Shown here piece by piece: positions 1,443 to 25,342 of a stretch of 64,000 nucleotides of DNA; the first letter of the stretch is position 1; every line of letters begins with the position of its first letter. Both the position numbers and the translations under genes were made by a program. Source of the DNA: a virus; the IMG/VR virus record IMGVR_UViG_3300028802_000011, positions 1 to 64,000 of that record; one strand, 5' to 3'. Under the pieces are notes generated by a model. That model was not told the DNA's origin. It worked only from the letters and a program-made list of their open reading frames with translations, and made no database searches.

Positions 1443-1831
1443 TGGGTTACGATGCAATCATCCGCGAAGGCATCGGGATTATCAACAACGAGACGTCGTC
1501 ACTTCAGACGATTGTCACTCAGTACCCGTACATCGGCGACGGTGGTTATGGCAAGATGCTCGGGAGTGGCATTCTCATCAGCGCCATTCACGAGCCGATG
1601 AACAAGATGATGCCTGGGGAAGTAGTAATCAAGGCGAAGCTCATCGTTGTGAGCGTTCTCGAGGATACACCTGCGTTCCCTGGGTTTACCAGACTCAATC
1701 CTGTGGATCCAAGGGATGAATTCGAGCTGCCGGGAGGAGTGCGAGGGGTCATCGTTGATATGCCTGGCCTCACGGACCCGACAACTACCAAACCGTACTT
1801 CTATGAGATCTTCATTGGGGAAAGCAAGTGA
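1442..1831 (+). CDS. Putative neck / head-closure protein
   Basis: 129-residue protein rich in beta-strand-like segments, located between the adaptor and the sugar block, where head-closure or tail-terminator genes normally sit. No catalytic motif, membrane segment or signal peptide. The start overlaps the previous stop by one base and the end overlaps the GTG start of the aminotransferase gene. I do not recognise the family with certainty; the neck assignment is inferred from position, size and the PGGVRGVIVDM turn-rich C-terminal half. Confidence 0.45.
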   Translation: MGYDAIIREGIGIINNETSSLQTIVTQYPYIGDGGYGKMLGSGILISAIHEPMNKMMPGEVVIKAKLIVVSVLEDTPAFPGFTRLNPVDPRDEFELPGGVRGVIVDMPGLTDPTTTKPYFYEIFIGESK

Positions 1832-2874
1832 AGACTATTAGAATCGCTGAACCGACCTTCCTTGGAAACGAAGTCGACTATGCTCTTGACGTCATGAGTT
1901 CTGGTTGGCTGACGAGGGGCAGGTTTGTCGAGCGATTCGAGGAGCTTATTGCTCAGTCGATGAGTGCAAAGCACGCGCTCGCGGTCTCGAACGGGACCGC
2001 CGCTCTCCATCTAGCCCTCCTCGGATTGGGAGTCAAGCCTGGGGATCGAGTCATTGTTCCCTCCTGCTCGTACATCGCGACGGCGAATGCCGTGAGGTAC
2101 TGCGGCGCGAAGCCGGTGTTCGTGGACGTTCGCCCTGACACCTGGACTCTTGATCCAGATGATGCCTTGATTGCAGCGAAGCGCACTGGTGCAGTCGGTA
2201 TCATCGGAGTGAACCTCTATGGGATCCCTTGCACGTTCCCTCATGCTCCGGAACTCTGGATGTTGGAGGATGCGTGCGAGTCCCACGGCACCAAACTCGC
2301 GGGCGATGTGGCAGTTCTCTCGTTTTACGGGAACAAAATCGTCACCTGTGGTGAGGGTGGAGCCGTCGTAACTAACAGATCCGATGTGTTCAAGCAGGCC
2401 TTCTTGCTCCACGGGCAGGGTACAACAGGAGCTCGGCGGTATCACCACGAGGTCCTGGGATACAACTACAGGCTCACGGATCTCCAGGCTGCGGTCGGTT
2501 GCGGTCAAATGGAGAAGCTTGACGAGCACCTGCGGCGACGTGCAGGCCTCCGTGATGCGTACTCGATGTATCTCCCGGCTGTGGACAGACAGACCTGGCC
2601 CTTGAACCATCCAAACTGGGTTATGCCTGTGATGGTTCCGAACAGGGACAACGTGATGAAGGCTCTTGCTGCTGATGGCATCGAGACGAGGCCGGTGTTC
2701 CCGCCTCTGCATCGTCAGCCGGGTTATCTCACGGATCAGCATCTGCCAGTTTCGCAAGAGATCGCACGCAGCGGACTGCTTCTGCCGCTTCACCTCAAGA
2801 TGAATGTCGAGGATGTCAAGTGGATCTGCGGAAGGTTGGCCTTGGCTATTCGTTCCTTGAGGGTCGCGGTATGA
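1828..2874 (+). CDS. DegT/DnrJ/EryC1/StrS-family sugar aminotransferase
   Basis: PLP-dependent (fold type I) aminotransferase of the kind that puts an amino group on a keto-sugar nucleotide. Motifs in order: SNGTAALHLAL at residues 54-64, the PLP-ring-stacking and pyridine-nitrogen region EDACESHG with Asp148, and the Schiff-base lysine Lys170 in SFYGNKIVTCGEGG. The Tyr-rich NYRLTDLQAAVG segment is also typical. At 348 residues it is near the usual family length (about 370). GTG start overlapping the preceding stop (GTGA). It heads a coupled run with an acyltransferase and two glycosyltransferases, implying synthesis and transfer of an N-acylated amino sugar. Finding this in the head module is unusual; the target (capsid, tail or DNA) is unknown. 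Confidence 0.85.
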   Translation: MKTIRIAEPTFLGNEVDYALDVMSSGWLTRGRFVERFEELIAQSMSAKHALAVSNGTAALHLALLGLGVKPGDRVIVPSCSYIATANAVRYCGAKPVFVDVRPDTWTLDPDDALIAAKRTGAVGIIGVNLYGIPCTFPHAPELWMLEDACESHGTKLAGDVAVLSFYGNKIVTCGEGGAVVTNRSDVFKQAFLLHGQGTTGARRYHHEVLGYNYRLTDLQAAVGCGQMEKLDEHLRRRAGLRDAYSMYLPAVDRQTWPLNHPNWVMPVMVPNRDNVMKALAADGIETRPVFPPLHRQPGYLTDQHLPVSQEIARSGLLLPLHLKMNVEDVKWICGRLALAIRSLRVAV

Positions 2875-3479
2875 GCGAAGAGAATCCGCGCAACTACTTC
2901 GACCAGATGCAGAACCTGGTGCATATGCTCGAGGAGCAGATGAACCTGGACGAGATCATGCGCCAGTCCAACCTCGAGATCGAGCGCTCTCAGCAGGGTC
3001 TTTATCAGAACCAGATCTACGAGCCTGTGGTCATGACGAACCGTGCTGCGATCCACTTCGGCAAGCTCGGAGTTCGCGTTGACAGTTTTGTCAAGATCGA
3101 AGGAGGCACCGGAGTCCATATCGGTGCCGGAACACACATTGCTAGCTTCGCCCACATCGGTATCGGTGGAGGGCAGGTCATCATCGAAGAGTTCTGTGCC
3201 GTGGCCTCTGGCGGGAAAATCATCTCTGGCAGCAATCAGCCGGATGCCATCAGCATGAGCGCGTCTTCTTTCAAGGAGATGCAGCGAGTTGCTCGTGGCG
3301 TCGTCATCATGAAGAAGTACTCGTGCGTTCTTACGAACGCAGTCGTCCTTCCTGGAGTAACACTCCACGAAGGATCCATACTCGCAGCAGGTGCAGTCGC
3401 GACGAAGGACATTCCGGCCTGGGAAATCTGGGGCGGAGTGCCGGCGAAATTCATTAGCAAACGGGAGATCAAGAGATGA
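2871..3479 (+). CDS. Left-handed beta-helix (hexapeptide) acyltransferase
   Basis: 202-residue acyltransferase-like protein, likely transferring an acetyl or formyl group to the amino sugar made by the neighbouring aminotransferase. The N-terminal ~50 residues are helical and charged; from about residue 75 onward there are hexapeptide-type repeats (VHIGAGTHIASFAHIGIG), and the C-terminus has the signature closing motif LAAGAVATKDIPAWEIWGG followed by VPAKFI, as in sugar O/N-acetyltransferases of the LbH family. The start at 2871 is chosen because it makes an ATGA overlap with the upstream stop; an in-frame ATG 51 nt earlier would run deep into that gene. The catalytic His is not assigned with confidence. 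Confidence 0.82.
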   Translation: MSEENPRNYFDQMQNLVHMLEEQMNLDEIMRQSNLEIERSQQGLYQNQIYEPVVMTNRAAIHFGKLGVRVDSFVKIEGGTGVHIGAGTHIASFAHIGIGGGQVIIEEFCAVASGGKIISGSNQPDAISMSASSFKEMQRVARGVVIMKKYSCVLTNAVVLPGVTLHEGSILAAGAVATKDIPAWEIWGGVPAKFISKREIKR

Positions 3480-4168
3480 GGATCTGCGTCACGTCAGCCT
3501 TCAGGGACTGCAGTGATGCTCAGCTTCTTCGATGGGTGGGTCAGGTTCGTCAGCTGGCTCTTAGTGCTGGGTCCTTTCACGACGTATGTGCTATCGCTGT
3601 GGAAGGTGACTCGAAGGACTACACTCACCGAAGACTGTGCATCTTCGCGAAGCAGAGAGGCATCGACCTCAAGCTCGTGAAGCAGGACCTCGGGACTCCG
3701 CGCTATGGATCTACCGAAGATCCTGCACGGATGGCCGCACTCTCGAAAGTTCTCAACGAGGCATTTGACAATCTCGAGGAAGATGTCGACATGGTTATGC
3801 ACGTTGAGAGTGACCTGATCTGGTCTCCCGAAACTGTCATTGATCTCATCGACCTCGTTGGTAGTGGCCGAGACATTGTGGCTCCACTGGTTTTTGCCGG
3901 CGAGCATTTCTACGATGTCTGGGGCTTCCGTGGAATGGATGGCAGCCGGTTTGCCCCGTTCCCTCCGTATCATGCCAGCGTTCTTGCGAACCAGGGCAAG
4001 ATGACGGAGGTCAGCAGCGTCGGGAGCTGTCTGGTAATGCGAGGTGACATTGCCAGACAGGTTCGTATCGAGAACGGTGGCGCTCTGGTAGGATGGTGCG
4101 AGAACGCCCGAAGTAAGGGACACAAGATCTGGGTCGAACCGCGTCTGGCAGTGAGGCATCCCGCATGA
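3476..4168 (+). CDS. GT-A glycosyltransferase, Anp1/GT62-like
   Basis: 230-residue probable nucleotide-sugar glycosyltransferase. The acidic metal-binding motif is in MHVESDLIWSP (Glu111-Ser-Asp113). It is followed by DIVAPLVF, a Tyr-Asp-x-Trp segment, a VSSVGSCLVMRGDI loop and a late GWCENARSKGHKIWVEP region ending in RHP. This order closely resembles Anp1-type (GT62) enzymes and their phage relatives. It is ATGA-coupled to the genes on both sides. Donor and acceptor are unknown; with the aminotransferase and acyltransferase upstream, an amino-sugar donor is a reasonable inference. Confidence 0.72.
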   Translation: MRICVTSAFRDCSDAQLLRWVGQVRQLALSAGSFHDVCAIAVEGDSKDYTHRRLCIFAKQRGIDLKLVKQDLGTPRYGSTEDPARMAALSKVLNEAFDNLEEDVDMVMHVESDLIWSPETVIDLIDLVGSGRDIVAPLVFAGEHFYDVWGFRGMDGSRFAPFPPYHASVLANQGKMTEVSSVGSCLVMRGDIARQVRIENGGALVGWCENARSKGHKIWVEPRLAVRHPA

Positions 4169-5034
4169 AGGTCTGTGTCGAAGCACCTCCGGTTATGAGC
4201 CGGGCGATGTTCCGCGTCGCCGATGCCTTGCGCGCGCACGCTCCCGCGGGAGTGCAGTGCGTGAAGACTGGCATCGAGTCTGATCTTCAAGTCCTCCATG
4301 TAATTGGGATGGAAGGAATGCCCGACGCCATCTCCAAGTCACCGGAGTACGCAGTCCTTCAATACTGCTACAGAAGCGCGAACGGATCTCCTGAGCAGTG
4401 GAATGAAGTTTGGAAGAATGCTCGGATGGTGTGGAGCTATTATGGCGATCTCCCCGTGCCCGAAGGAACAAACTTCCTCCACAGTCCTCTTGGAGTTGAC
4501 ACTTCAGTGTTCCGCTGGAACCCTGCCCCTCGCTGTCGCGCGGTCGTTACGACAGGCTTCGTTTCCGGGCCGTGTGCGGAGGCGATCGAGGAAGTTGCAG
4601 TCGCGGCTCTCAGGTCAGGGTTCGAAGTAGTCCACATCGGGCCGACTGATGTTGTCGGAATGAACCCTCGTATCTCACGGCACAAGGACTGGAACGCTCT
4701 TGGAGGAATCTCCGACGCACGTCTTGCGGAGATTTACCAGAACGCAATGTGGGTGTCGGGCCTGCGGCACGTCGAAGGCTTCGAACTGCCGGCTCTCGAG
4801 GGCCTGGCCTGCGGCGCGAGGCCCATACTCTTCGAGCGCCCCGACATGCGTCAATGGTACGACGGGATGGCAGACTTCATCCCCGAGTGTCACGGTGACG
4901 AGCTCATCCAGCACCTCCTCGAACTGTTCAAGTCGCGGCCCGTGACTGTCGATCCGGCTGTGTACGACATCATCTCGCACGAGCTCAGTTGGGATTGCTT
5001 CGCGAAGACGTTCTGGAAGGAGCTTGGAGTATGA
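4165..5034 (+). CDS. GT-B glycosyltransferase (GT4-like)
   Basis: 289-residue protein with the C-terminal signature of GT4-type enzymes: an SPLGVDTSVFRWNP linker at about residues 109-122, then GLRHVEGFELPALEGLACG around residues 194-212, which contains the E-x7-E-like nucleotide-sugar binding motif (GFELPALEGLACG). The N-terminal acceptor domain is shorter than in typical GT4 proteins (about 350-400 residues), so it may be a compact phage version. ATGA-coupled upstream and downstream. Second of two glycosyltransferases in the sugar block. Confidence 0.75.
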   Translation: MKVCVEAPPVMSRAMFRVADALRAHAPAGVQCVKTGIESDLQVLHVIGMEGMPDAISKSPEYAVLQYCYRSANGSPEQWNEVWKNARMVWSYYGDLPVPEGTNFLHSPLGVDTSVFRWNPAPRCRAVVTTGFVSGPCAEAIEEVAVAALRSGFEVVHIGPTDVVGMNPRISRHKDWNALGGISDARLAEIYQNAMWVSGLRHVEGFELPALEGLACGARPILFERPDMRQWYDGMADFIPECHGDELIQHLLELFKSRPVTVDPAVYDIISHELSWDCFAKTFWKELGV

Positions 5035-9452: not shown

Positions 9453-10589
9453 ATGGCAATCCATCAGCAGGGTAACGCACTAGTCTGCGTCGCAGGGTTT
9501 CTGAATAGCGGAGCTGCCGCTACTGGACTCACTGTTGCGGTCGACGTCTGGGAGATCGGCCTTGCAAGTGGGACTGCGACACAGATAGTCTCGTCGGGAT
9601 CAGCAACGGAGATTGCTCGAGGAGCATACTACTATCGCCTTGCTTCAAGTGGAGTAGATCTGAACGCTATCTACTTGTTCATGTTCTTCACGGCGGGGAC
9701 TGCAGACCAGAAGGTCATCATCCAGGGCTGGTCTGTTGGTATGACGTGGGTTGAGAACCTCAACGCACAACTTAGTGGGATTGCAGCCGCAGTGTGGGCC
9801 GTCGGTACAAGGACACTTACGAGTTTTGGCACACTCGTTGCAGATGTGACGACGGCTGTCTGGGCTAACGGTACACGCACCTTAAGCTCGTTTGGGACGC
9901 TCGTTGCTGACATCTGGGCAAACGGCACGCGAACACTAACAGGCTTCGGCACACTAGTTGCAGACGTTGCAGCGCAAGTATGGAACTCGGTTGCTGCAAC
10001 TTTCAACACTGCTGGCACGATGGGCCAGAAACTCAATGCTGCCGGCGGTGCTACGGATCCTTTGACAAACGCTGTCCCTGGATCCTACGGTGAAGGTACA
10101 GCCGGCGAAGCCCTTGGTGACATCCGTAGCATCAAATCAAAGACCGACCTCATCACTACTAACGGTGTGACCATCACGTCACCGTACAATCCGGTAACTG
10201 GCAGATTGGCACTTACCAGAGGCGACGACTACCCCGCAACGGATCCGTTCCCGCTTCAGTTCAGTAGCGATACCTGGCCTGATCTTACTGGAGCGACGGT
10301 TCAGTTGACAATTCGTAGGAAGCCGGTGAACCCGACGATCTCCGACGCTGCTCTGTTGACAATGACGGACACTGTTGCTTTGAGAATCGACGGTGACGGC
10401 ATCGAACAGACAGTTACGTTCGAACCTATGTCCAGTGGAAGTGCAAACGGCCAGGTCGGCAGCACTGTTGATCTCGACACAGGTGTTTCGTCCGTGAAGT
10501 TCGACGTTCAGGCCACTCTGGCAAGTGGAACCAAGAAGACCCTCGTGGCTGGCCTTGGTGATATCACCGAAGACCAGACGCGCGGCTAA
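9453..10589 (+). CDS. Repeat-bearing tail/baseplate-type receptor protein
   Basis: 378 residues. The N-terminal domain (about 1-110) is beta-rich. Residues about 113-174 hold three imperfect repeats built around (A/I)W-A-x-GTRTL-x-x-FGTLVAD, a unit seen in several phage tail and baseplate proteins. The C-terminal part has a BppU-like pattern (LTRGDDYPATDPFPLQF, then GATVQLTIRRK), suggesting a baseplate upper-protein-like domain. The start at 9453 follows the previous stop closely; an earlier in-frame ATG lies inside that gene. Likely a host-recognition structural protein; the exact subunit is uncertain. Confidence 0.65.
   Translation: MAIHQQGNALVCVAGFLNSGAAATGLTVAVDVWEIGLASGTATQIVSSGSATEIARGAYYYRLASSGVDLNAIYLFMFFTAGTADQKVIIQGWSVGMTWVENLNAQLSGIAAAVWAVGTRTLTSFGTLVADVTTAVWANGTRTLSSFGTLVADIWANGTRTLTGFGTLVADVAAQVWNSVAATFNTAGTMGQKLNAAGGATDPLTNAVPGSYGEGTAGEALGDIRSIKSKTDLITTNGVTITSPYNPVTGRLALTRGDDYPATDPFPLQFSSDTWPDLTGATVQLTIRRKPVNPTISDAALLTMTDTVALRIDGDGIEQTVTFEPMSSGSANGQVGSTVDLDTGVSSVKFDVQATLASGTKKTLVAGLGDITEDQTRG
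9789..9974 (+). repeat. Three tandem WANGTRTL-type protein-coding repeats
   Basis: Three consecutive units begin at about 9789, 9855 and 9912 (the third is shorter by three codons at its front). Each encodes a Trp-centred segment, GTRTL and FGTLVAD. Nucleotide identity is only partial and synonymous sites differ, indicating old duplication kept by protein-level selection. Confidence 0.8.
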
Positions 10590-10602
10590 GAAAGGTCAGG
10601 TC

Positions 10603-11790
10603 ATGGAGAAGAAGAGGAAGTTGCTGTGGATCGGTGATGCTGTGGTTTCGTCCGGGTTCGCACGTGCCACACATCACACGCTCGACGTCTTGAAGGAAAG
10701 TTGGGACGTGAGTGTCCTCGGCCTCAACTACATGGGCGATCCACATCAATATCCTTACGATATCTATCCGGCCTGGTCCGGAGGCGATGCATTCGGTGTC
10801 AAGCGGACTGCTGCCCTCGTGTCGAAGATCCGGCCTGATCTGGTAGTTGTGCAGAACGACCCGTGGAATGTACCGGAGTACATGAAGCGAGCCGGCGACT
10901 GCCCAACTGTCGCGACGATGCCAGTCGACGGAAAGAATTGCCGAGGCGCTGCCCTGAACGGTCTCCTCCTCGGAATCTTCTGGACGCAGTTCGGCTTGGA
11001 CGAAGCTCGCAAGGGAGGATATGCTGGTGAAGCCGCCGTCGTTCCTCTTGGTGTTGATCTCGAGCTCTACAAGCCTTCGGTCACGAAGAAGGAAGCTCGT
11101 GAGAAGATCGGCCTCCCGAACGCTGTGAAGGACGGCTTCCTCGTTGGCAATGTCAATAGGAACCAGCCGCGAAAGAGATTGGACTTGACAGTTCAGTATT
11201 TCGCCGAGTGGGTGCATTCGTTTGGCATCAAGGACGCGTATCTGTTCTTGCATGTGGCTCCCACGGGCGACCAGGGCTATGACGTGAAGCAGCTCATGAA
11301 GTACTACGGATTGCCTGGCAGGCTCATCCTGTCCGATCCTGAGATCGGCATGGGGTCGCCCGAAGCGAGCCTTCCGTACTTGTACCAGTCGTTCGATGCG
11401 CAGATCTCGACGACGCAGGGCGAGGGCTGGGGACTCACGACGATGGAGGGAATGGCCTGCGGTGTTCCGCAGATTGTTCCGGAGTGGGCGGCGCTTGGCG
11501 AATGGTGTGAGGATGGAGTCATCAAGATTCCGTGTCGCGATCAGATCGTGACGCCGAACAACATCAACGTCGTCGGCGGTGTTCCTTCCAAGACGCACTT
11601 CATGAACGCACTCGCGAACGTTTATAACAACGAAGGCGTTCGCAAGGACCTCATCGCTCGTGGCCTGGCAGTTGTGCGGAAGCCGCAGTACCGCTGGAAG
11701 GCTGTCGGCGAAGCCTTCGCGAAGGCTCTGGACGAAGTCAGGTATGTCTCCAGGAACGACGAAGTTGAAGAGGTGGAGGTCAAGGTCTAA
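10603..11790 (+). CDS. Glycosyltransferase family 4 (GT-B)
   Basis: 395-residue full-length GT-B enzyme. The N-terminal Rossmann domain begins KRKLLWIGDAVVSSGFA. The inter-domain region has VPLGVDLELYKPS at about residues 150-162, then GNVNRNQPRKRLDL (donor-domain phosphate contacts), and the C-terminal signature GEGWGLTTMEGMACGVPQI at about 273-291 contains the E-x7-E motif. The start at 10603 is preferred because it lies just after the upstream stop with an AAAGGTCAGG ribosome site. It lies between appendage and tail-completion genes, so it may glycosylate a virion or cell-surface component. Acceptor unknown. Confidence 0.88.
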   Translation: MEKKRKLLWIGDAVVSSGFARATHHTLDVLKESWDVSVLGLNYMGDPHQYPYDIYPAWSGGDAFGVKRTAALVSKIRPDLVVVQNDPWNVPEYMKRAGDCPTVATMPVDGKNCRGAALNGLLLGIFWTQFGLDEARKGGYAGEAAVVPLGVDLELYKPSVTKKEAREKIGLPNAVKDGFLVGNVNRNQPRKRLDLTVQYFAEWVHSFGIKDAYLFLHVAPTGDQGYDVKQLMKYYGLPGRLILSDPEIGMGSPEASLPYLYQSFDAQISTTQGEGWGLTTMEGMACGVPQIVPEWAALGEWCEDGVIKIPCRDQIVTPNNINVVGGVPSKTHFMNALANVYNNEGVRKDLIARGLAVVRKPQYRWKAVGEAFAKALDEVRYVSRNDEVEEVEVKV

Positions 11791-13749: not shown

Positions 13750-16698
13750 ATGGCTCTCAGCATTGCCGAACTCGTAGGAACAGTCGAGCTCGAGGACAAG
13801 TTCACACCTGGTCTCGACAAACTGACCGGGAGTATGGTCAGTGCTGGAGCCGTCATCGGTGTTGCAATCGCTGCCGTTACGGGTTTGACAGTTGCAATTG
13901 TCAAGCTCGGCGAGCGCGGTGCCGAGATCGAGGACGTTGCAAGGAACTTCGAGGGCCTTTCCATGAGGGTCAACGAAACAGCAGACGCGATGCTGGGAGC
14001 CTTGCGCAAGGGTACAGCCGGTGTCGTGAGCGACTTCGAGCTCATGAAGATGTCGAACAAAGCGATGGGCGCCGGCTTCCAGGGCTCTGCGAAAGACATG
14101 GAGACTCTGGCAGCCGGCGCACGTGAGCTCGCCAATCGCGTCGGGCTCGAGGGAGGTACTGCCGCCGCGTTCGACTTGCTCACCTCCTCGATGGCGAAGG
14201 GCAAAGCTCAGGGCCTGGCGCAGCTCGGCCTCATGGTCGATCAGAAGGCTGCTCTCGAGAACTACGCTGCGTCCATTGGCAAGAGTGCTAGTGAACTTAG
14301 TGGCCTCGAGAAGAAGCAGGCCACACAGAAAGCAGTGCTCGAGGCTTTGGCAGGTACTCTGAAGGACGCAGGAACACAGAGCCTGGACTTCAGCGAGAAG
14401 ATAGGCCGAGTAGTTACCTTCGTTCAAAACTTCGTAGACAAACTGGCGCTAGCAATTAGCAAATCGCCAGTGCTGAACGCCGCACTTGACTCGATGGCGA
14501 AGGCCTTCGAGACTGCGTTTGGTGATGACCAGAGTGCTGCGATTTCGTTCATCGTTGGCCTGGTCGAAGACTTCGCCATCATCATGGTGAAAGTTGCTGA
14601 AGCAACTGTCACTGGAGTGAAGTTCATCTCTGACGCTTGGATGTTGTTCGACGTCGCTTTCAACTTGATCATGACGGGAGTCTTCGCGATCTCGGCGAAA
14701 TTCATCACGACACTCGAGTCGATGTTGCAGGCCTCCCTCAAACTGGCGCAGTCTGTTCTGGCAATTGCACAGGCAGGACAGGCCATCCCTGGAATCGGCG
14801 GGGCGATGACCGTCGCCGCCGCTGGATTGTCAGTTGCAATCGGTGGGATCAAGAGCGATCTTGGATCCATCAAGGGAATGGGTGCTGATCTCGAGGGGAT
14901 GGCGGATGGTTTCGCAAAGAACGTAGATAAGGCTTTTGCTGATTCAGACAAACGTGCAGAAGGTCTTGACAATCTCAGCAAGGGGCTCAAAGGTTTCCGT
15001 GAAGGAATGGAAGCCGCGAAGGGAACTGCTGAGAAGGCGACTGCTCCAACAAAGGCCTTCGCCGCTGCTGTTGACACGCTTGGTGAAACGACAGCTCAAA
15101 CTGCCGAGAAGCAAAAGAAGCTTCTCGAGGTGATGAATCGTCTTGGCCCGAGCACGATGAGCATCGAGAAGGACTTCGATGACCTCATTGAATCCTTCAA
15201 TGCTTTGGGTGGGGATCTTACCAAACTAACAGACAAGCAACTGGTCACTTTCATCCAGAAGTTGCAGGTCATGGCCGAGAGTGGATCAGCCACAGAGCCC
15301 GTCTTCATGTCCTTGGCCGCTGCCATGGACGAGATGGGAGGACGCAGTGACTTCGCTGCTAAGCAAGTTGGATTGCTCGGCAGCGAAATGAAGAAGACTG
15401 AGACTAAGACGAAGGCTGTCGCGGATCAAACTCTCACTCTTGGGATGGCCTTCGACACAGTTGCTGACATCGTTGGCGCTCTCGGATTCAGCACCGATTC
15501 GTTCCTTGGGAGCTTGGCGAATGGTCTCAAGCAGGCCATCGGCCTTGCTGGCAATCTCGGCAAGACATTCGCCGTGATGGAGAACGGCGTCCAAGTAGGA
15601 ACGAAGGGCTTCGGCGCGTTGAGTATGGGCGATAAGCTCGGCGTTGGAACACAAGTCCTCGGCGCTGGCATTGACATATTCAAGGGAGGCCAGCAACAGG
15701 GAGCAGTGAAGGGAGCTCTCGGCGGTGCCATGAAGGGAGCCATGATCGGCTCTGCCATTCCTGGAGTTGGAACTCTACTTGGAGCAGGAGCAGGTGCCCT
15801 CCTCGGAGGGATCGGCGGATTGTTCGGTGGAGGCGAAGGCAAGAAAGTCAAGGAAGGACGAAATCAGTTTATCGAGGAGCAGGGGGGACTTGAGCAACTT
15901 CAAAGACGTGCAGAGGCTGCCAACGTTAGTCTGACTGCTCTCTTTGATGCAAAGAAAACTGCTCAACTGAAACAGGCCATCACGGATATCAACTCACAGT
16001 TGAGTACATCTGAGGGCGCTCATGCTGCCCTTGCCGATGCAGTTGAACGATACGGGTTCACGGTCGAGGAGCTTGGCCCAAAGTGGCAGGCTCAGCAACT
16101 TGACTCGATGGCCGGTAGTCTGCTTCAGGACTATCAACTCCTCATTGCGAGCGGCATCGAGAACGAAACTGTCATCAATCGGATGGGACCGGCGTTCAAC
16201 GAGTACGTCCAGACTGTACTCGCATCCGGAGCTGCTATTCCCGAAGCGATGCGTCCCATTCTCGAAGACATGGTCGAGATGGGAACTCTTACTGATGCTG
16301 CTGGCAACAAGATCGAGTCCTTGGAAGGCATCAAGTTCGCCGAGTCGATGAGTGATCAGCTGTCCAAGATTGTCGAAGGCATTCAGCAGATGGTTGCTGC
16401 ACTCACTGGGATCCCCAACGTTGAGAGAACAGTAACTGTCAGAACTGTCCACGACGATGGTGGAGCAAACGGGAACATGAAGGTTCCTGGAATGGCAACG
16501 GGAGGCCTCGTCACTAGGCCGACTCTGGCAGTTGTTGGTGAGGCAGGCCCTGAGGCTGTGATCCCATTGGACAAGCTTCACGAGATGCAGGGTTCAGGCG
16601 GAGGAGGTATCACGAGGGCGGACATGCAATCTATGATGACGGCGCAGCGCCGTCAGCTCACACTCGCCATCAGAGACGCACTGATCCAGAGTAGGTGA
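13750..16698 (+). CDS. Tail tape measure protein
   Basis: 982 residues, the longest gene here; its length sets tail length (roughly 0.15 nm per residue by the usual rule, so near 150 nm). The N-terminus has a hydrophobic stretch (VIGVAIAAVTGLTVAIVKLG), the body is long helix with many Lys/Glu/Ala, and there are hydrophobic segments near residues 300-380. A Gly-rich LGAGAGALLGGIGGLFGGG lies near residues 675-695. The C-terminal GGLVTRPTLAVVGEAGPEAV then IPLDKL is a strong tape-measure signature. Follows the chaperones immediately. Confidence 0.93.
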   Translation: MALSIAELVGTVELEDKFTPGLDKLTGSMVSAGAVIGVAIAAVTGLTVAIVKLGERGAEIEDVARNFEGLSMRVNETADAMLGALRKGTAGVVSDFELMKMSNKAMGAGFQGSAKDMETLAAGARELANRVGLEGGTAAAFDLLTSSMAKGKAQGLAQLGLMVDQKAALENYAASIGKSASELSGLEKKQATQKAVLEALAGTLKDAGTQSLDFSEKIGRVVTFVQNFVDKLALAISKSPVLNAALDSMAKAFETAFGDDQSAAISFIVGLVEDFAIIMVKVAEATVTGVKFISDAWMLFDVAFNLIMTGVFAISAKFITTLESMLQASLKLAQSVLAIAQAGQAIPGIGGAMTVAAAGLSVAIGGIKSDLGSIKGMGADLEGMADGFAKNVDKAFADSDKRAEGLDNLSKGLKGFREGMEAAKGTAEKATAPTKAFAAAVDTLGETTAQTAEKQKKLLEVMNRLGPSTMSIEKDFDDLIESFNALGGDLTKLTDKQLVTFIQKLQVMAESGSATEPVFMSLAAAMDEMGGRSDFAAKQVGLLGSEMKKTETKTKAVADQTLTLGMAFDTVADIVGALGFSTDSFLGSLANGLKQAIGLAGNLGKTFAVMENGVQVGTKGFGALSMGDKLGVGTQVLGAGIDIFKGGQQQGAVKGALGGAMKGAMIGSAIPGVGTLLGAGAGALLGGIGGLFGGGEGKKVKEGRNQFIEEQGGLEQLQRRAEAANVSLTALFDAKKTAQLKQAITDINSQLSTSEGAHAALADAVERYGFTVEELGPKWQAQQLDSMAGSLLQDYQLLIASGIENETVINRMGPAFNEYVQTVLASGAAIPEAMRPILEDMVEMGTLTDAAGNKIESLEGIKFAESMSDQLSKIVEGIQQMVAALTGIPNVERTVTVRTVHDDGGANGNMKVPGMATGGLVTRPTLAVVGEAGPEAVIPLDKLHEMQGSGGGGITRADMQSMMTAQRRQLTLAIRDALIQSR

Positions 16699-18346: not shown

Positions 18347-18634
18347 ATGGCCTGGACTACTCCACGAACGTGGCTGGCAGGTGAGCTCGTCAAGGAAGGC
18401 GATCTCAACGCACAGATCCGTGACAACCAAACTATCTTGAAGACGCCCATCACTGATGCTGGAAAGATCGTGGCGTTGAGCTCGACCTACTTGGCAGATC
18501 TCAGTGGTTCGAACTTGACCGGCGTCGCGAAGCTTGCGGCGGCGAACACGCATACCGCAGGTGTGAACACCTTCAACGGAGGCGCTGGCGTCCGCGTGAT
18601 CCTTCCTGTAGGTGCGGATAAGTGGGCGACCTAA
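18347..18634 (+). CDS. Tail appendage protein, MAWTTPRTW paralogue 1 (short)
   Basis: 95 residues. Starts with MAWTTPRTWLAGELVKEGD, then an IRDNQTIL segment, a motif shared with the next gene and with the gene at 23441; this N-terminal module is widespread in phage tail proteins and probably attaches an appendage. The second half (NTHTAGVNTFNGGAGVRVIL) is also conserved in the next gene, so this copy looks like that protein cut short before its C-terminal domain. GGAGAT ribosome site. It ends exactly where the next ATG begins. Confidence 0.7.
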   Translation: MAWTTPRTWLAGELVKEGDLNAQIRDNQTILKTPITDAGKIVALSSTYLADLSGSNLTGVAKLAAANTHTAGVNTFNGGAGVRVILPVGADKWAT

Positions 18635-19606
18635 ATGGCTTGGACCACTCCTAGAACGTGGGTCGACGGGGAAATCGTAACTGCCGCGATGATGAATGCA
18701 CACATTCGCGACAACTACGGTATCCTCAAACTACCTATCAACGACGACGGCCGGTTCCTTGGGCTGAGCTCTGCCACTCTTGCTGACTTGGACGGCACGA
18801 ACCTCACCGGTCTGGTAAAGCCCGGCTCCTCGAACTCTCACACTGCCGGTGTCAATGACTTCAACGGAGGAAGTGCCACCAGATTCGTTCTGCCAGTTGG
18901 CACAGACAAGTTCGACGGTACTGGTGGGAACAAAACGGCTGGCTCTAAGTGGGTAGAAGGTGACTACCTACATCACGTAGCTAGCAATCAGAACGAGTGG
19001 CGCTATCCTGGCGTTTTCGTTAGCACTCCCGGGGGAGCTGTCATTGGAAGTTACTGGATCGAATCCAACGAAGAGCATTACATAGACGCTGACGGTGACG
19101 AGCGCAAGATTACTGGCACTGCGACGGGGATGCACAACGACGTCCTTGCGCGCGCTGGTAGTGTGTGGGTCGAAACTTATCAGCACTTCGTTGGATCTGC
19201 AGGAGTTCAAGAGTACCAGAGTCACGATGATCTTCATGGGGATTCTGCACCGAGTCACAACGATGCACATTCCGACGGTCATGATGATACTCACGGCGAT
19301 GGTGGTGCAGGCCACGATGACTCCCACTCTGATGGGCACGATGACAATCATGGTGACACTCACGACGATGTTGCTCATGACGACTTCCATCAGGATCACG
19401 ACGACGAAGTAATCCATGATGACAATCACACTGACACACATGACGACGATCACAGTGACACTCACGACGATAACCACGGTGACAGTCATGGGGACTCCGT
19501 GGATCACGACGACGCGCACAACGATGACCACAGTGACAGTCACGGCGACGGGATTGTAGGACACATTGACACGCACGGCGACGCTCCTGAAAGTATTGGC
19601 ACATGA
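18635..19606 (+). CDS. Tail appendage protein with His/Asp-rich C-terminal tail; candidate modification substrate
   Basis: 323 residues in three parts: the MAWTTPRTW attachment module (1-90, parallel to the preceding gene), a middle domain (about 91-195) and a striking low-complexity tail (about 197-315) with roughly 27 His and 41 Asp, built from short words such as HDDxHGD, HSDGHDD and HDDNH. It ends in an ordinary DAPESIGT. The tail should bind divalent metal ions, like the HxH-type iron sites of some phage fibre tips, but over a far longer stretch. The stop overlaps the ATG of a radical SAM gene (ATGA), so the two are translationally coupled and the tail is the obvious candidate substrate. 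That substrate role is inference. Confidence 0.75.
   Translation: MAWTTPRTWVDGEIVTAAMMNAHIRDNYGILKLPINDDGRFLGLSSATLADLDGTNLTGLVKPGSSNSHTAGVNDFNGGSATRFVLPVGTDKFDGTGGNKTAGSKWVEGDYLHHVASNQNEWRYPGVFVSTPGGAVIGSYWIESNEEHYIDADGDERKITGTATGMHNDVLARAGSVWVETYQHFVGSAGVQEYQSHDDLHGDSAPSHNDAHSDGHDDTHGDGGAGHDDSHSDGHDDNHGDTHDDVAHDDFHQDHDDEVIHDDNHTDTHDDDHSDTHDDNHGDSHGDSVDHDDAHNDDHSDSHGDGIVGHIDTHGDAPESIGT
19223..19579 (+). repeat. His/Asp-rich degenerate coding repeat
   Basis: About 360 bp of imperfect repeats of codons for His, Asp, Gly, Ser, Thr and Asn (words such as CACGATGAC and CATGATGAC). The wobble bases vary between units, so the repeat is held at protein level rather than being a recent DNA slippage product. 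The complementary strand therefore shows long spurious open frames rich in Val and Met, which are not genes. Confidence 0.85.
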
Positions 19607-20832
19607 CATATGAATTGATGCCGTTGAACACACAGTGCAACATCAAGTGCGAGTACTGTTATCAGGAGGGCCTGCGCGAGAACGAGGAAGACAAGCCCTA
19701 CTCAATGGAGCGGATGCGGGAAGCTCTGCTGCGCCAGGGCCAGAAGTTTATGGTCTTCGGCGGTGAGCCTCTGCTAGTTCCCATCGGAGACCTCGAGGAG
19801 ATCTTCAAGTTGGGCCTCGAGAAGTATGGATCGAACGGCATACAAACTAACGGGTCGCTCATCACGGACGCACACATCGCTCTGTTCAAGAGATACAGTG
19901 TCTCGGTTGGAATCTCTCTTGACGGTCCTGGTGAGTTGAACGATGCGCGTCGCATCGGTGATCTGGAATCCACACGACGAACCACCGAACGCTCTGAAGC
20001 GAATCTTCTCCGCTGTATGGAAGAGAAGGTTTGCCGTGGAGTCATCGTCACCCTTCACAAGTTGAACGCCAGACCTGACCGGCTGCCTCGTCTGGTTGAG
20101 TGGATCAAGTTCCTGTGCGACAAAGGCATGACGAGCGTTCGCTTCCATGCGCTCGAGATCGACAGTGCAGTTGCAGAGATGCTCGCCCTCAGTGAAGACG
20201 ATGCAGTCGCAGCAATGTTGACACTGCGAGAACTGTGCATTGAAAAAGATCTCATCGTGCATGAGTTCGCCGACATCGCGGCTTTACTGAGAGGCCAGGA
20301 CAAAGGCGCATCCTGCATCTGGAACGGCTGCGATCCTTGGACGACTCCTGCAGTGAGCGCGCTTGATGGCCAGGGCGAACGAAAGAACTGCGGCCGCACA
20401 AACAAAGATGGCAAGAGCTGGATGAAGGCCTCCAGCCCTGGTCATATGAGACAGTTGATTCTATACAACACTCCTTACGAAGACGGCGGATGTAAGGGAT
20501 GCAGGTTCTTTGTGATGTGCAAGGGAAACTGTCCAGGCCACGGTATCGATGGCGACTGGCGCAGCCGGCCTCGTGACTGCCGTGTTTGGATGAGGCTCTT
20601 CGAAGAGACTGAAGCGACGATGCTTCGTCTTGGACAGAAGCCTGTGTCCAAATGGACGAACCTCGCGAAGCTCGAGGAGGTTATGCTCAAGGAGTGGGCG
20701 GCTGGACGTCAGCCGATAGTTGAGGACGGGATCGCCATTCTAAACGGCAAGAAACCAGCCTATTCGTCTGGGCCTGGCGGTCATATTGATTGGCACAAGG
20801 ATCACAACGACGCTTCAGGAGCAAATCAATGA
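19603..20832 (+). CDS. Radical SAM/SPASM peptide-modifying enzyme
   Basis: 409 residues. The radical SAM cluster motif is NTQCNIKCEYCY (Cys12, Cys16, Cys19, a CxxxCxxC), followed by FGGEPLL (GGEP, residues 53-56) and a GISLDGPGELND strand that is typical of anSME/SPASM enzymes. The C-terminal SPASM-type region carries CIWNGCDPW, NCGRTN, CKGCRFFVMCKGNCPG and RDCRVW, enough cysteines for two auxiliary [4Fe-4S] clusters. Enzymes of this layout modify ribosomally made peptides or proteins (C-C, C-S or C-O bonds, epimerisation). ATG overlaps the stop of the His/Asp-rich gene and its stop overlaps the next ATG. The substrate is not proven. Confidence 0.88.
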   Translation: MTYELMPLNTQCNIKCEYCYQEGLRENEEDKPYSMERMREALLRQGQKFMVFGGEPLLVPIGDLEEIFKLGLEKYGSNGIQTNGSLITDAHIALFKRYSVSVGISLDGPGELNDARRIGDLESTRRTTERSEANLLRCMEEKVCRGVIVTLHKLNARPDRLPRLVEWIKFLCDKGMTSVRFHALEIDSAVAEMLALSEDDAVAAMLTLRELCIEKDLIVHEFADIAALLRGQDKGASCIWNGCDPWTTPAVSALDGQGERKNCGRTNKDGKSWMKASSPGHMRQLILYNTPYEDGGCKGCRFFVMCKGNCPGHGIDGDWRSRPRDCRVWMRLFEETEATMLRLGQKPVSKWTNLAKLEEVMLKEWAAGRQPIVEDGIAILNGKKPAYSSGPGGHIDWHKDHNDASGANQ

Positions 20833-22145
20833 TTCCCGAATTCTTCCGTGGGCCGATCTGGGTATCCGGTGATGCACAGAAGGCCTGGGAGCCGAAGATC
20901 AAAACGGCCAGTGCTCTCTGGAACGTTCTCGAGCGCGCGAGCGTGGTTCATAACATTCGCCGCAGCGCTCTCCTGTCCATATCTGTTAGTGAACTACCAG
21001 ACCTCGTGAAGGACGTTGACAAGTGTGGACTTGAAGTGACAGTCCTGAACACTACTCACATGTCTGGTTCGTACGCGTCCAGTCAAGCAACGTCCGGGCC
21101 TCTTGGCCTGAGGGTCGCCCTTCACGGGCCAGGTGATGCGCACGACTGGGTCGAAGCGTTTCATTCCTCCGACAACGACGCCATCGGTCACCTCCTCGGA
21201 TTCCCATCTTGCTGCCGGGAGTTCTTCGAGGAGACTTGGGGGAAGGGAGCCAAGGACTCAACTCTGCAGATGGCCGGCAGCGACGGACCGAACGCGATCA
21301 ACATCATGCTGCGCTGGTTGAACGTTCGGCTGGTCCCGCATCTTCCGTGCTCCTTCGATTGTCGCAAGTCGTTGGACTTCGCCGCCGATATGGTGCAGCT
21401 TGCACACAGTCTTGATCTCATTGATCAAGTGGAAACTTCCCTGTCTCTGCTGGGCCTGCCGATGCAGTACAGCGCTCTTCACGGTGCGATGCAGTTGGTC
21501 ACACCTGTGTTCAAGTTCGCGGCATCAACGGACTACACTGCCAAGAAGATTACTAAGGAACGGAAAGGTAAGTTCACAGAGCTTACGCCGATCGTTCTTA
21601 GTGACGAGGAACTTGAGGCCAGAGTCAACGGGTTTACTTCAAAGGATGTAATGAATGATTGTCACGATCTCGTACTGGGTGGAGCGAGATGTGTGGAGAA
21701 CAGTGACCCTGTTCTGGACCTCGGCTGCGGTGACGGGACACTCGCGGGTATGGTTGCAGGCTACTCGGCTGTCCCCGTCTACGGAGTAGACCTCAGCGCT
21801 GATGCGATCCTCGCTGCGCACAAGAAGTTCCCCGGCGCGAAGGATAACTTCTGGGTTGACAAGTTCCAGTACGCATTTGACAGGAACGACGTGATGTATG
21901 GCATCACTCTGTTGATGCCAGGCAGGCTCGTTGAGATGAAGGACAGTAACAAGACCAAGCGGTTCTTGGATGTCCTGTTCGCGCGTTCCAAAGTCGTCAT
22001 CGCCTATGCGTACTCGGATTGGCTCAAGGATCAAAGCATCGAGGAGCTCTGCAAGAAAGCGGGGATCAGTCGCCCTCCGGACTTCGTCCTTCAAAACACT
22101 GCACCGAAGGCCGGCGTCGCGGTCTACAAGCGGAGGCAGGTATGA
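20829..22145 (+). CDS. DUF483-like domain fused to class I SAM methyltransferase
   Basis: 438 residues. The N-terminal ~230 residues contain HLLGFPSCCREFFEETW (Cys128-Cys129) and HLPCSFDCRKS (Cys174, Cys178), a cysteine pattern I associate with DUF483-type proteins. The C-terminal part has methyltransferase motif I VLDLGCGDGTLAGMV (about residues 295-309) and an acidic strand end VYGVDLSADAI (motif II). A methyltransferase acting on the same substrate as the radical SAM enzyme is the simplest reading. The start at 20829 gives an ATGA overlap; an earlier in-frame ATG is inside the upstream gene. I have not seen this fusion described. Confidence 0.7.
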   Translation: MIPEFFRGPIWVSGDAQKAWEPKIKTASALWNVLERASVVHNIRRSALLSISVSELPDLVKDVDKCGLEVTVLNTTHMSGSYASSQATSGPLGLRVALHGPGDAHDWVEAFHSSDNDAIGHLLGFPSCCREFFEETWGKGAKDSTLQMAGSDGPNAINIMLRWLNVRLVPHLPCSFDCRKSLDFAADMVQLAHSLDLIDQVETSLSLLGLPMQYSALHGAMQLVTPVFKFAASTDYTAKKITKERKGKFTELTPIVLSDEELEARVNGFTSKDVMNDCHDLVLGGARCVENSDPVLDLGCGDGTLAGMVAGYSAVPVYGVDLSADAILAAHKKFPGAKDNFWVDKFQYAFDRNDVMYGITLLMPGRLVEMKDSNKTKRFLDVLFARSKVVIAYAYSDWLKDQSIEELCKKAGISRPPDFVLQNTAPKAGVAVYKRRQV

Positions 22146-22927
22146 CGGAGTGGGCCAGGATCGCGAAGCCGCAGCCTGACGACTACGACACAGTCAAGCT
22201 CCTCGAGCAAGCATATCGTCGATGGGGATACGGAAGCATTTACTCCGGAGGTCCTCGCTTCTGTAAGTTCATGGAGTTGACAAACACAGACAAGACGAGC
22301 TCAGGTGAATTCGCTGCGATCAACGACCCACGACTAACTGCTGTCGAAGATATCATCCGAAGTTGGCAGCACTCTGACAGTCTTCGTCTGCTGGACTTCT
22401 TCAGCCCGATGAAGTTCGACAGACCAGTTGGAAGAGGATGCACGTCGGGGCACAGCAAGCCTTCAGAGAGAGGACGCATAGGATGCTACGTGACGATCGA
22501 TGATCCTACCGGCTGCGCTGAAGGGATTGTGCACGAGCTTGCACATCAGCGACTTCATTGCTTAGGGATGGATCTTGATAGTCACGATCGTACTCTAATC
22601 CTGAATGACAACGAACTGAAGTGGTTCAGTCCTATTCGGCGGGATTGCCTTCGCCCCATGACAGCGTTGATCCACGGGATCTATGCCTATACGTTCGTGT
22701 TGAGCATCGACCTCATTGCTTCAGACGGGATTGAGTACTTGAAAAACAATGTCCCGAAAGTACGTCGAGGTCTCGAAGAGATTAGCAAGGGAGTCGAAGT
22801 AACAGACGAAGGTGTCGAGTTCATGAAAGGCTTCCTGGAATGGGCCTATTCACTCGTTCATGAAGGCGAGGCTACTCTGTTGAATGCTGGTGTCGCCGAA
22901 GTTTACTGGGAGGGGTATCGTGGCTGA
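22142..22927 (+). CDS. Stand-alone HExxH putative peptide-modification protein
   Basis: 261 residues. The motif IVHELAHQRLHCLG (HELAH at residues 131-135) is followed by a WFSPIRRDCLRPMTALIHG and IYAY segment. This order (VHE-x-x-H, then a P-W/I-R-x-D-x-RP-x-x-x-L-x-HG-x-YA block) is the signature of the mod_HExxH family found in RiPP clusters, often fused to FxsB-type radical SAM/SPASM enzymes. Fused members of that group have been reported to be iron/2-oxoglutarate-dependent beta-hydroxylases. Here the domain is separate. It is not a typical metallopeptidase: the residues after HExxH fit the RiPP family. ATGA overlap upstream. Confidence 0.72.
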   Translation: MTEWARIAKPQPDDYDTVKLLEQAYRRWGYGSIYSGGPRFCKFMELTNTDKTSSGEFAAINDPRLTAVEDIIRSWQHSDSLRLLDFFSPMKFDRPVGRGCTSGHSKPSERGRIGCYVTIDDPTGCAEGIVHELAHQRLHCLGMDLDSHDRTLILNDNELKWFSPIRRDCLRPMTALIHGIYAYTFVLSIDLIASDGIEYLKNNVPKVRRGLEEISKGVEVTDEGVEFMKGFLEWAYSLVHEGEATLLNAGVAEVYWEGYRG

Positions 22928-23441
22928 AGAGCTGACGACTGGTGAATGGCCGTGGGTCGTGATGCACGGGGAACATCCTGCCTGGTACCAGCGCTCGTTG
23001 ATAGTTGGCGACTTCGCACCTGGCAGGATCCCGGCTTCTAATTACGCTGTCTCTCTTGATGGAGATATATTCGGCCCTGATGAGCGCCCGTTCTGTGGCA
23101 CTTGTCTTGCTGAACCTCTAACTGATGAGCTCGATGTGATGGAGCGCAGCACTGGCAACTCAAGCTTCTTGTCGCTCTACAGGAATCCTAATCATCGCCT
23201 GCCGTGGCCTCCTCCTACGAATCCCGCGACCTGCTGGTACTGCAACGACAACAGTGTTCGGGTGAAGAAGGAAGTGAAGATCGAGGACATCGCCAAAGCG
23301 GCGTTCGGGAAAGATCGCAAGACCAAGTCCAGAGCGAAGGTGCTCGTGTGTTCGAAGTGCTCGGACTTCGTTGACAAGCGCAGAGAACAGAAGGATCGCG
23401 TGAGGGATCCGAGAAACAATGACGACCGAGGAGGTAGATAG
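22920..23441 (+). CDS. Zinc-ribbon protein of the modification cassette
   Basis: 173 residues, GTG start with a GGGAGGGG ribosome site; a more distant ATG would lie inside the upstream gene. It has PFCGTCLAEPL, TCWYCNDNS and VLVCSKCSDFVD, three CxxC knuckles that could form zinc or iron-sulphur sites. An upstream segment (LYRNPNHRLPWPPPTNPATC) is Pro-rich and the C-terminus is highly charged. It sits between the HExxH gene and the third MAWTTPRTW appendage gene and shares single-base overlaps with both, so it probably belongs to the cassette, perhaps as a substrate-recognition or delivery subunit. Function unknown. Confidence 0.6.
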   Translation: MAEELTTGEWPWVVMHGEHPAWYQRSLIVGDFAPGRIPASNYAVSLDGDIFGPDERPFCGTCLAEPLTDELDVMERSTGNSSFLSLYRNPNHRLPWPPPTNPATCWYCNDNSVRVKKEVKIEDIAKAAFGKDRKTKSRAKVLVCSKCSDFVDKRREQKDRVRDPRNNDDRGGR

Positions 23442-23896
23442 TGGCCTGGACAACTCCTAGAACGTGGAGTGCCGGCGAGACCGTCACCGCCACGATCATG
23501 AACACCCACGTTCGCGATCAGTTCAACGCACTCGCGAACAAGGCTATCATCGTTTCAATTGGTAGTGCTGGCGGAGGTGTCATTCCTAACGGTCACAAGA
23601 TGTACGTCGAGATCCCTGTCAATCTCCGTGCGACAGGCTGGACAGTTGTGTCCGACGCTTCCGGCACTATTGTCTTTGACATCTACAAGGATTCTTACGC
23701 TAACTTCCCGCCGACAGTTGGGGACAGTATGACTGGTACGGAGAAGCCCACTCTCAGCGGCCAGCAGAAGAACCAGGATCTGACGCTGTCCTCGTGGAGC
23801 ACGGACATCCTCGCCGGTGATGTACTCGCCGTCGTCGTGTCGAACGTTGCAACAGTGCAGCAAGTGACACTGTCAATCAGGTGTGAGCCACTCTGA
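23441..23896 (+). CDS. Tail appendage protein, MAWTTPRTW paralogue 3
   Basis: 151 residues, GTG start overlapping the preceding TAG by one base, with GAGGTAG upstream. The N-terminal 25 residues (MAWTTPRTWSAGETVTATIM then NTHVRDQF) match the genes at 18347 and 18635. The rest is a beta-rich domain with no similarity to them, ending in VSNVATVQQVTLSIRCEPL. It probably displays a different module at the same attachment point. No His/Asp-rich region. Confidence 0.7.
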   Translation: MAWTTPRTWSAGETVTATIMNTHVRDQFNALANKAIIVSIGSAGGGVIPNGHKMYVEIPVNLRATGWTVVSDASGTIVFDIYKDSYANFPPTVGDSMTGTEKPTLSGQQKNQDLTLSSWSTDILAGDVLAVVVSNVATVQQVTLSIRCEPL

Positions 23897-24579: not shown

Positions 24580-24905
24580 TTGTCCAGTTCGATACGAATG
24601 AAGCCTACGAGCACTTCCAGTTCTACTGGTATGCTGTGAAGACGGGCCTGTATAACGGAGGCCTGCGTTTTGCCGAGTGCCAGTCCCTCCTCGAGCTGAG
24701 GCTTCACGCGGTCAGCCGCGACAACGACCAGAAGGACGGCGGACGAGTTCTGCTCGAGGAGTGCTCGATGGAGTTCACGGACGAGGAGCGTGTCGTGCTC
24801 GCACGTCTACTGTCGACTGCACCTTGGAAGGATGATGCGATCAGAGCCGCGCAGGCAGCTCTTCGCTATCTCGGAGTCGAGGTCGAATTTAAGTTGACAG
24901 TTTAG
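24576..24905 (+). CDS. Hypothetical protein
   Basis: 109 residues, GTG start overlapping the upstream stop (GTGA). Mostly helical; aromatic N-terminus (YEHFQFYWYAVKTG), charged centre with DNDQKDGGR and EFTDEERVVLARLL. No known motif. Last gene of the late rightward unit before the opposing minus-strand gene, whose 3' end overlaps it by 4 nt. Confidence 0.5.
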   Translation: MIVQFDTNEAYEHFQFYWYAVKTGLYNGGLRFAECQSLLELRLHAVSRDNDQKDGGRVLLEECSMEFTDEERVVLARLLSTAPWKDDAIRAAQAALRYLGVEVEFKLTV

Positions 24906-25342
24906 TCGACTTCAACCGGCGTCGTGCTCAACAGTATCCCGCGGGACGCATGCTCAGCCATGAGCCCGTGTCCCCAGTGACCTCGCTCGGGATAGAGCAC
25001 GTGAAGCACCTCGTGCGCGATCACTCGGCCCATCGCCTTGTGAAACTTCGGCGACTCGCGGCTCACCTCGAGATACTTCTCGAGGTTGACGATGAAGACC
25101 ACGATGAGCCTCTTGTCCGGGTGAGGGTTCGTGACTCCAAGCAGGTGTTCGGCGCCGGCTGGCACTGGGTTCAGCACGCGAAGCTGAATGGGTGCAGTCT
25201 TCATCGACACGCTGAGTGCAGGCTCGTTGCGAAGGATTCGCTCCGCTTCTTGCCAGGCTTCGTTCGTAACCTGCGGCGGCTGAGCCAAGATACTACTCAG
25301 GGCCGCGATAGCTATCATCATGCTACTCGCCTCCGGAATCAC
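24902..25342 (-). CDS. Exported zinc metallopeptidase-like protein
   Basis: 146 residues and the only convincing minus-strand gene. The N-terminus is a short signal peptide (MMIAIAALSSILAQ from an alternative start at 25321, or seven residues longer from 25342). The C-terminal motif VIAHEVLHVLYPERGHWGHG then LM is an extended HExxH-x(n)-H with a following Leu-Met turn, as in zincin-type peptidases; similar HEhxH...HGLM proteins occur in soil bacteria. Small size implies little beyond the zincin core. Its convergent end overlaps the preceding gene by 4 nt and its promoter must lie in 25343-25600. It could have been acquired from a host. Confidence 0.68.
   Translation of the reverse strand: MIPEASSMMIAIAALSSILAQPPQVTNEAWQEAERILRNEPALSVSMKTAPIQLRVLNPVPAGAEHLLGVTNPHPDKRLIVVFIVNLEKYLEVSRESPKFHKAMGRVIAHEVLHVLYPERGHWGHGLMAEHASRGILLSTTPVEVD

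Follow-up and report, generated by a model that had tools for sequence, protein, structure and literature searches.

A predicted RiPP-like enzyme cassette linked to an H-x-D repeat array on a phage tail appendage protein

The window analysed here (64,000 nucleotides; positions 1 to 64,000 of the 66.9-kb IMG/VR virus record IMGVR_UViG_3300028802_000011) contains a cassette of five overlapping genes (18635-23441), which is flanked by tail genes and located inside the late structural region. On the basis of sequence features, the cassette is probably (with a probability of about 0.72) a phage-encoded system resembling those for ribosomally synthesized and post-translationally modified peptides (RiPPs), which would cross-link and hydroxylate the phage's own tail protein. 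Its components are as follows (SAM, S-adenosylmethionine; aKG, alpha-ketoglutarate).

18635..19606, plus strand: tail appendage protein (323 aa), the proposed substrate, with an MAWTTPRTW N-terminus, three GSxW[VI] modules, and a C-terminal H-x-D array
19220..19603, plus strand: H-x-D array (appendage residues 196-323), 27 His, all with Asp at +2
19603..20832, plus strand: radical SAM/SPASM enzyme, the proposed cross-linking enzyme (Pfam Radical_SAM above cut-off; SPASM Cys invariant)
20779..20829, plus strand: C-terminal tail of the radical SAM enzyme with three HxD units (HID, HKD, and HND), from the translation
20829..22145, plus strand: DUF483-like domain fused to a SAM-dependent methyltransferase domain (Pfam, AlphaFold model, and homologues)
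22142..22927, plus strand: predicted aKG-HExxH-type peptide beta-hydroxylase (TIGR04267 above cut-off; fold match)
22920..23441, plus strand: protein with three CxxC pairs, putative zinc binder (homologues in loci L034, L039, L071, and L271 only)

The first four genes are joined by an ATGA overlap at each junction. The Cys-pair gene starts with GTG at 22920 and ends at 23441, where the next virion-type gene starts, also with GTG, and the stop/start overlaps are unbroken from the appendage gene through to 23896. A sequence-only reading of this DNA had described coupled genes behind an appendage gene with a His/Asp-rich tail; its coordinates are right, and the overlaps were confirmed.

The H-x-D array and its motif

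In the window array, Asp occupies the +2 position of 27 of 27 His residues, whereas in 20,000 shuffles of the same residues the count averaged 8.6 and reached 19 at most. The His/Asp tail reported earlier thus exceeds chance expectation, but is more exactly described as an H-x-D array than as a generic tail rich in His and Asp. The middle residue varies (D, G, S, N, Q, T, and I), both His codons and both Asp codons are in use, and the DNA is scarcely tandem-repeated, features which together indicate that the pattern is maintained at the protein level. An artefact of DNA repeats was also considered and is ruled out by the mixed codons and by the presence of just one repetitive stretch (2.9 copies of a 24-bp unit).

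Among 1,939 His residues in 51 viral arrays, the +2 position is D in 88% and N in 5%, and the +1 position is free. In viral arrays selected by HxD alone, the probability of D/N at +2 is 0.98 for H, 0.40 for F, 0.30 for Y, 0.24 for W, and 0.10 or less for each other residue (odds ratio 7.7, p 4e-67). Residues reached from His by a one-step codon change, such as Gln, Asn, and Arg, show no such effect, which speaks against simple mutation. Differences between closely related pairs amount to 4.5% at motif position 1, 4.9% at position 3, and 36% at the middle position; the scoring of the alignments is biased towards conserved residues, yet pairs that are nearly identical give the same picture. About half of the position-1 changes are swaps among H, F, Y, and W, and the position-3 changes are mostly between D and N. 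A natural exchange of both residues (His to Phe and Asp to Asn) is seen in a phage relative (L025:2896-3942), which contains 37 FxN and 6 HxD units; the arrays of L043, L057, L061, and L066 are largely HxN, and some arrays are partly YxD. At the level of sequence, the array motif follows the aromatic-x-acceptor rule of the three-residue cyclophane-forming enzymes (3-CyFEs), by which an aromatic ring, including His C2, is joined to the beta-carbon of the residue at i+2 (PMC11002830).

The GSxW[VI] module was found in 39 of the 55 viral array proteins, compared with 14 of 811 background open reading frames (ORFs), and the viral arrays frequently terminate in HxDxP (36/55). PHROG scans of the array proteins returned weak virion matches only, so the tail role of these proteins is assigned from neighbours and gene order; the proteins encoded upstream of the arrays match mainly tail fibre, tape measure, spike, and baseplate families.

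Association of the radical SAM enzyme with arrays in viruses and bacteria

A profile built from an alignment of five radical SAM enzymes recovered 72 viral and 78 bacterial loci, whereas scans of viral and genome contigs with one radical SAM or HExxH sequence as query gave almost no matches; the sole match of the HExxH viral scan (L001) falls inside a terminase-like frame and was dropped. A search of a phage collection identified the Thermus phages phiMa, Cumys, and phiLo, in each of which the radical SAM enzyme (approximately 47-48% identity) has a DUF483 neighbour. The final viral set, including the window and the Thermus phages, comprises 76 loci, and the bacterial set comprises 78. In Cumys, the protein encoded immediately upstream of the radical SAM gene (Cumys_13) carries 54 HxD units. 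phiLo encodes two proteins of 474 and 560 aa consisting almost entirely of HxD units, on the strand opposite to the radical SAM gene and a few kilobases from it (L005:13807-16935).

Linkage was assessed in those viral loci (64) where the sequence upstream of the radical SAM gene extends for 2.5 kb or more, an array being defined as [HF]-x-[DN]. The sequence-only reading had named enzymes lying far from any appendage gene in homologous loci as evidence that would count against it, and had called for a search for the same gene order in other phages. The proposal survives this check: in 60 of the 64 loci an array gene is located no more than 4 kb upstream of the radical SAM gene, and in 38 the distance is within 10 bp, compared with arrays in 2 of 589 distant control ORFs. 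The four exceptions are phiLo (L005) and L066 (HxN), where an array is present elsewhere in the locus, and two loci on short or cut-off stretches. In a reciprocal scan, the HxD DNA pattern alone led to 119 loci, 22 of which have an ORF with at least 15 HxD units; five of these 22 are shadow-frame noise, and a radical SAM enzyme of this family is encoded in 15 of the 17 genuine array loci and in none of the remaining 97 loci. Among the 22, seven loci lack the enzyme: the five rejected ones are shadow frames of other repeats, and the two genuine arrays for which no radical SAM gene was found lie on short contigs. These data suggest that the H-x-D array is very likely the substrate of the enzymes, and the 60/64 linkage lends support to the core of the earlier proposal, namely that a virion protein, the repeat protein, serves as the precursor on which RiPP-type enzymes act.

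A homologue of the DUF483 region accompanies the radical SAM enzyme in 70 of the 76 viral and 76 of the 78 bacterial loci, and an HExxH protein does so in 8 viral and 35 bacterial loci. In bacteria (Bradyrhizobium, Sphingomonas, Tahibacter, and others), the same radical SAM enzyme, often together with the HExxH protein, is encoded near peptides of approximately 75-110 aa ending in HID, and in Nannocystis it is encoded near proteins of approximately 1,100 residues with terminal HxD. Four such short peptides adjoining the radical SAM gene (L125:6667-6930, L141:6643-6924, L155:6532-6834, and L121:8633-8887) have the appearance of precursors of an unnamed RiPP class; the HID-ending peptides scored above the cut-off of no NCBIfam family. 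The longest array-bearing frame seen is also bacterial (L092:1815-10001; 2,729 aa with 41 HxD units) and reaches the start of the radical SAM gene.

In an unrooted tree, in which the window branch is long, phage and bacterial radical SAM enzymes fall on opposite sides of one branch with a support of 88, which suggests long establishment of the phage version and not a recent capture. Recent acquisition of the cassette as a foreign element is not supported, since its GC content and third-codon-position GC content match those of the flanks and the tree separates phage from bacterial enzymes.

Predicted enzymes, proposed chemistry, and alternatives

The earlier call of a radical SAM/SPASM enzyme holds: the Pfam Radical_SAM score is 49.4 bits (cut-off 29.5), and the cysteines of the CxxxCxxC motif and the SPASM motif (Cx2Cx5Cx3C...C) are invariant across homologues. 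A profile of the enzyme matches the radical SAM domain of ChlB with an E-value of 1.7e-10, and the best sub-threshold family models include the cyclophane-forming YhhB, AmcB, and GrrM/OscB. A C-terminal tail with at least two HxD units, overlooked in the earlier reading, is present in 57 viral and 8 bacterial enzymes among the 151 examined, and possibly serves substrate handling or self-modification.

The HExxH protein scores 46 bits against TIGR04267 (cut-off 40), all 25 of its 25 homologues match this model at E<=0.001, and H131, E132, and H135 are invariant. In a Foldseek search, its AlphaFold model (mean predicted local distance difference test score, pLDDT, 87) best matched the crystal structure of ChlB-HExxH (8s5f, E 3.9e-7) and SjiH (22ob, E 1.1e-5), and the next match was at E 0.77; the matches below E 0.001 are thus these two aKG oxygenases only, with no proteases. 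The mod_HExxH-type assignment made earlier is borne out by the family score, the invariant motif, and this ChlH-like predicted fold. In the DUF483/methyltransferase fusion, the methyltransferase domain is barely over the Pfam cut-off, and the AlphaFold model matches methyltransferase structures, which occupy the best 50 structural matches. The DUF483 half, which these matches do not account for, is sub-threshold (18.3 bits; cut-off 25), yet it contains invariant CC and CxxxC motifs and shows the conserved association with the radical SAM enzyme described above. As for the supposed zinc-ribbon protein, the three CxxC pairs are present, and the assignment is given as putative since its support consists of these pairs and four relatives.

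The cassette shares features with several known systems. Triceptide enzymes (XncB, OscB, MscB, YxdB, HaaB, and YhhB) are likewise radical SAM/SPASM proteins with an aromatic-x-acceptor motif, and His and Asn/Asp occur at these positions in single members (PMC11002830); the window enzyme differs in falling below all curated family cut-offs and in being paired with long arrays on a phage virion-type protein rather than a small peptide. ChlB/ChlH of Chlorogloeopsis, in which radical SAM and aKG-HExxH parts are fused, resembles the window system in the HExxH fold, the radical SAM profile, and the His/Asp of its cyclophane peptide (PMC12636437), whereas the window encodes two separate proteins, with low identity (17-19%), and a virion-type substrate. 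FxsB-type clusters also combine a radical SAM/SPASM enzyme with a mod_HExxH protein, but the FxsB-type label given earlier had to be withdrawn: the FxsB model scores 41.2 bits (cut-off 370), the third motif position is D/N, and there is no FxS substrate. His-Xaa-Ser (Hxs) systems have a His-x-residue motif and a radical SAM enzyme (PMC9062424); the window array has D/N instead of S at position 3, and Hxs models are absent among the best 25 radical SAM matches. The short leader-core precursor of classical RiPPs has no counterpart in the 323-aa appendage, although it does in the HID-ending peptides of the bacterial relatives. The module of the Thermus phages Cumys and phiMa (PMC11437467) likewise has an approximately 47% identical radical SAM enzyme followed by a DUF483 protein; an HxD array gene (53-54 units) lies just upstream. 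Their DUF483 protein lacks the methyltransferase fusion, and no HExxH gene was found in their module, unlike in the window.

In the proposed pathway, the appendage would be synthesized with its C-terminal H-x-D array, and the radical SAM/SPASM enzyme would most likely bond the His ring to the beta-carbon of the Asp at +2, generating three-residue cyclophanes along the array. The aKG-HExxH enzyme would act next, most likely hydroxylating beta-carbons of His and/or Asp, and the DUF483-methyltransferase protein would assist or methylate. ChlH hydroxylates these two residues in a peptide that already carries its cyclophane (PMC12636437). The window encodes a single enzyme of the cross-linking type and one of the hydroxylating type, adjoining an array that is precisely His-x-Asp. 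Hydroxylation by the HExxH enzyme is likely, and a cyclophane is the fairly likely product of the radical SAM enzyme. The modified array would form a stiff fibre at the tail that resists proteases and perhaps binds metal; this biological role is speculative.

Several points weigh against this proposal. The radical SAM enzyme scores too low for all the named NCBIfam peptide-maturase families listed, with every score under the cut-off, including the cyclophane-forming ones (YhhB, 64.8 of 445; AmcB, 64.2 of 425; GrrM/OscB, 53.9 of 310), and the triceptide precursors known to date are much smaller than the arrays. Hydroxylation is not universal, because HExxH was found in only 8/76 viral loci, the modified product would probably stay attached, and the H-x-D units could bind metal unmodified.

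This last point can be extended to an explanation in which the arrays are unmodified metal-binding segments and the linked enzymes modify another protein. Spaced His and Asp are good metal ligands, and the arrays are located in tail regions; nevertheless, Phe, Tyr, and Trp, which differ from His as metal ligands, still have D/N at +2, one array is almost entirely FxN, and arrays and radical SAM enzymes co-occur tightly, which together leave this explanation with very little weight. It is similarly very improbable that DNA (or RNA) is the target of the radical SAM and DUF483 proteins and that they adjoin the HxD protein by accident. DUF483 is a domain of unknown function, and the authors describing the Thermus phages recognized the module and proposed DNA modification from cyanobacterial homologues near deazapurine DNA modification genes, in passages that make no mention of HxD repeats (PMC11437467). 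Such a role is difficult to reconcile with the linkage in both directions (60/64 and 15/17), the HxD tails of the radical SAM enzyme itself, the predicted peptide-oxygenase fold of its HExxH companion, and the HID-ending peptides adjoining the bacterial relatives.

An unlikely, though not negligible, alternative retains the array as substrate and assigns the radical SAM enzyme a change other than an i,i+2 C-C cross-link, such as epimerization, an ether/thioether link, desaturation, or Asp decarboxylation. SPASM enzymes are chemically diverse, and this family lies under every curated model listed; on the other side, the aromatic position 1, D/N position 3, and free middle constitute the triceptide grammar (PMC11002830), and several of the best sub-threshold models are cyclophane-forming.

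Returning to cross-linking and hydroxylation of the array, we lean towards the broader view that tailed phages have their own lineage of RiPP-type enzymes, acting on aromatic-x-Asp/Asn arrays of tail appendages by cross-linking and, in some phages, by hydroxylation as well, and that the bacterial members of this enzyme family, with their HID-ending peptides and large HxD proteins, represent an unnamed RiPP-like class. The literature searched, which covers few subscription papers, contained no account of a virion protein being modified by RiPP-type enzymes; the chemistry is of a known kind, in a place previously undescribed, and appears new for any virus. If the proposal is true, viruses build part of the virion by natural-product chemistry, a covalent virion maturation of a kind not previously described, with enzymes working repeatedly along long protein arrays. 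An unexplained phage module would gain a function and an unnamed radical SAM family (76 viral and 78 bacterial loci) a likely substrate. The idea is directly testable in the cultivable Thermus phages Cumys and phiMa, where an HxD protein adjoins the enzyme.

Genomic context of the cassette

The following genes of the window define the structural region around the cassette.

54: head protein (phrog_771)
11790: neck-type protein (phrog_5 and phrog_556)
13408: tail protein (phrog_337)
13750..16698, plus strand: tape measure protein (982 aa); weak PHROG tape-measure matches, best E 1.7e-5
18347..18634, plus strand: small protein with an MAWTTPRTW N-terminus as in the appendage (translation read directly)
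23441..23896, plus strand: virion structural protein with an MAWTTPRTW N-terminus, overlapping the cassette end (phrog_10330, E 1e-14)

The MAWTTPRTW N-terminus is common to the genes at 18347, 18635, and 23441, and the enzymes thus sit between copies of one appendage type. Downstream, a small ORF on the minus strand (24902-25342), with no Pfam match, has a hydrophobic start and an HEVLH...H motif and resembles a zinc metallopeptidase. Glycosyltransferases, a DegT-type aminotransferase, and proteins resembling a hexapeptide transferase and the CAP59 mannosyltransferase are encoded in two segments (1828-5034 and 10525-11790) among the head and neck genes, a set suggestive of sugar synthesis or glycosylation of the virion.

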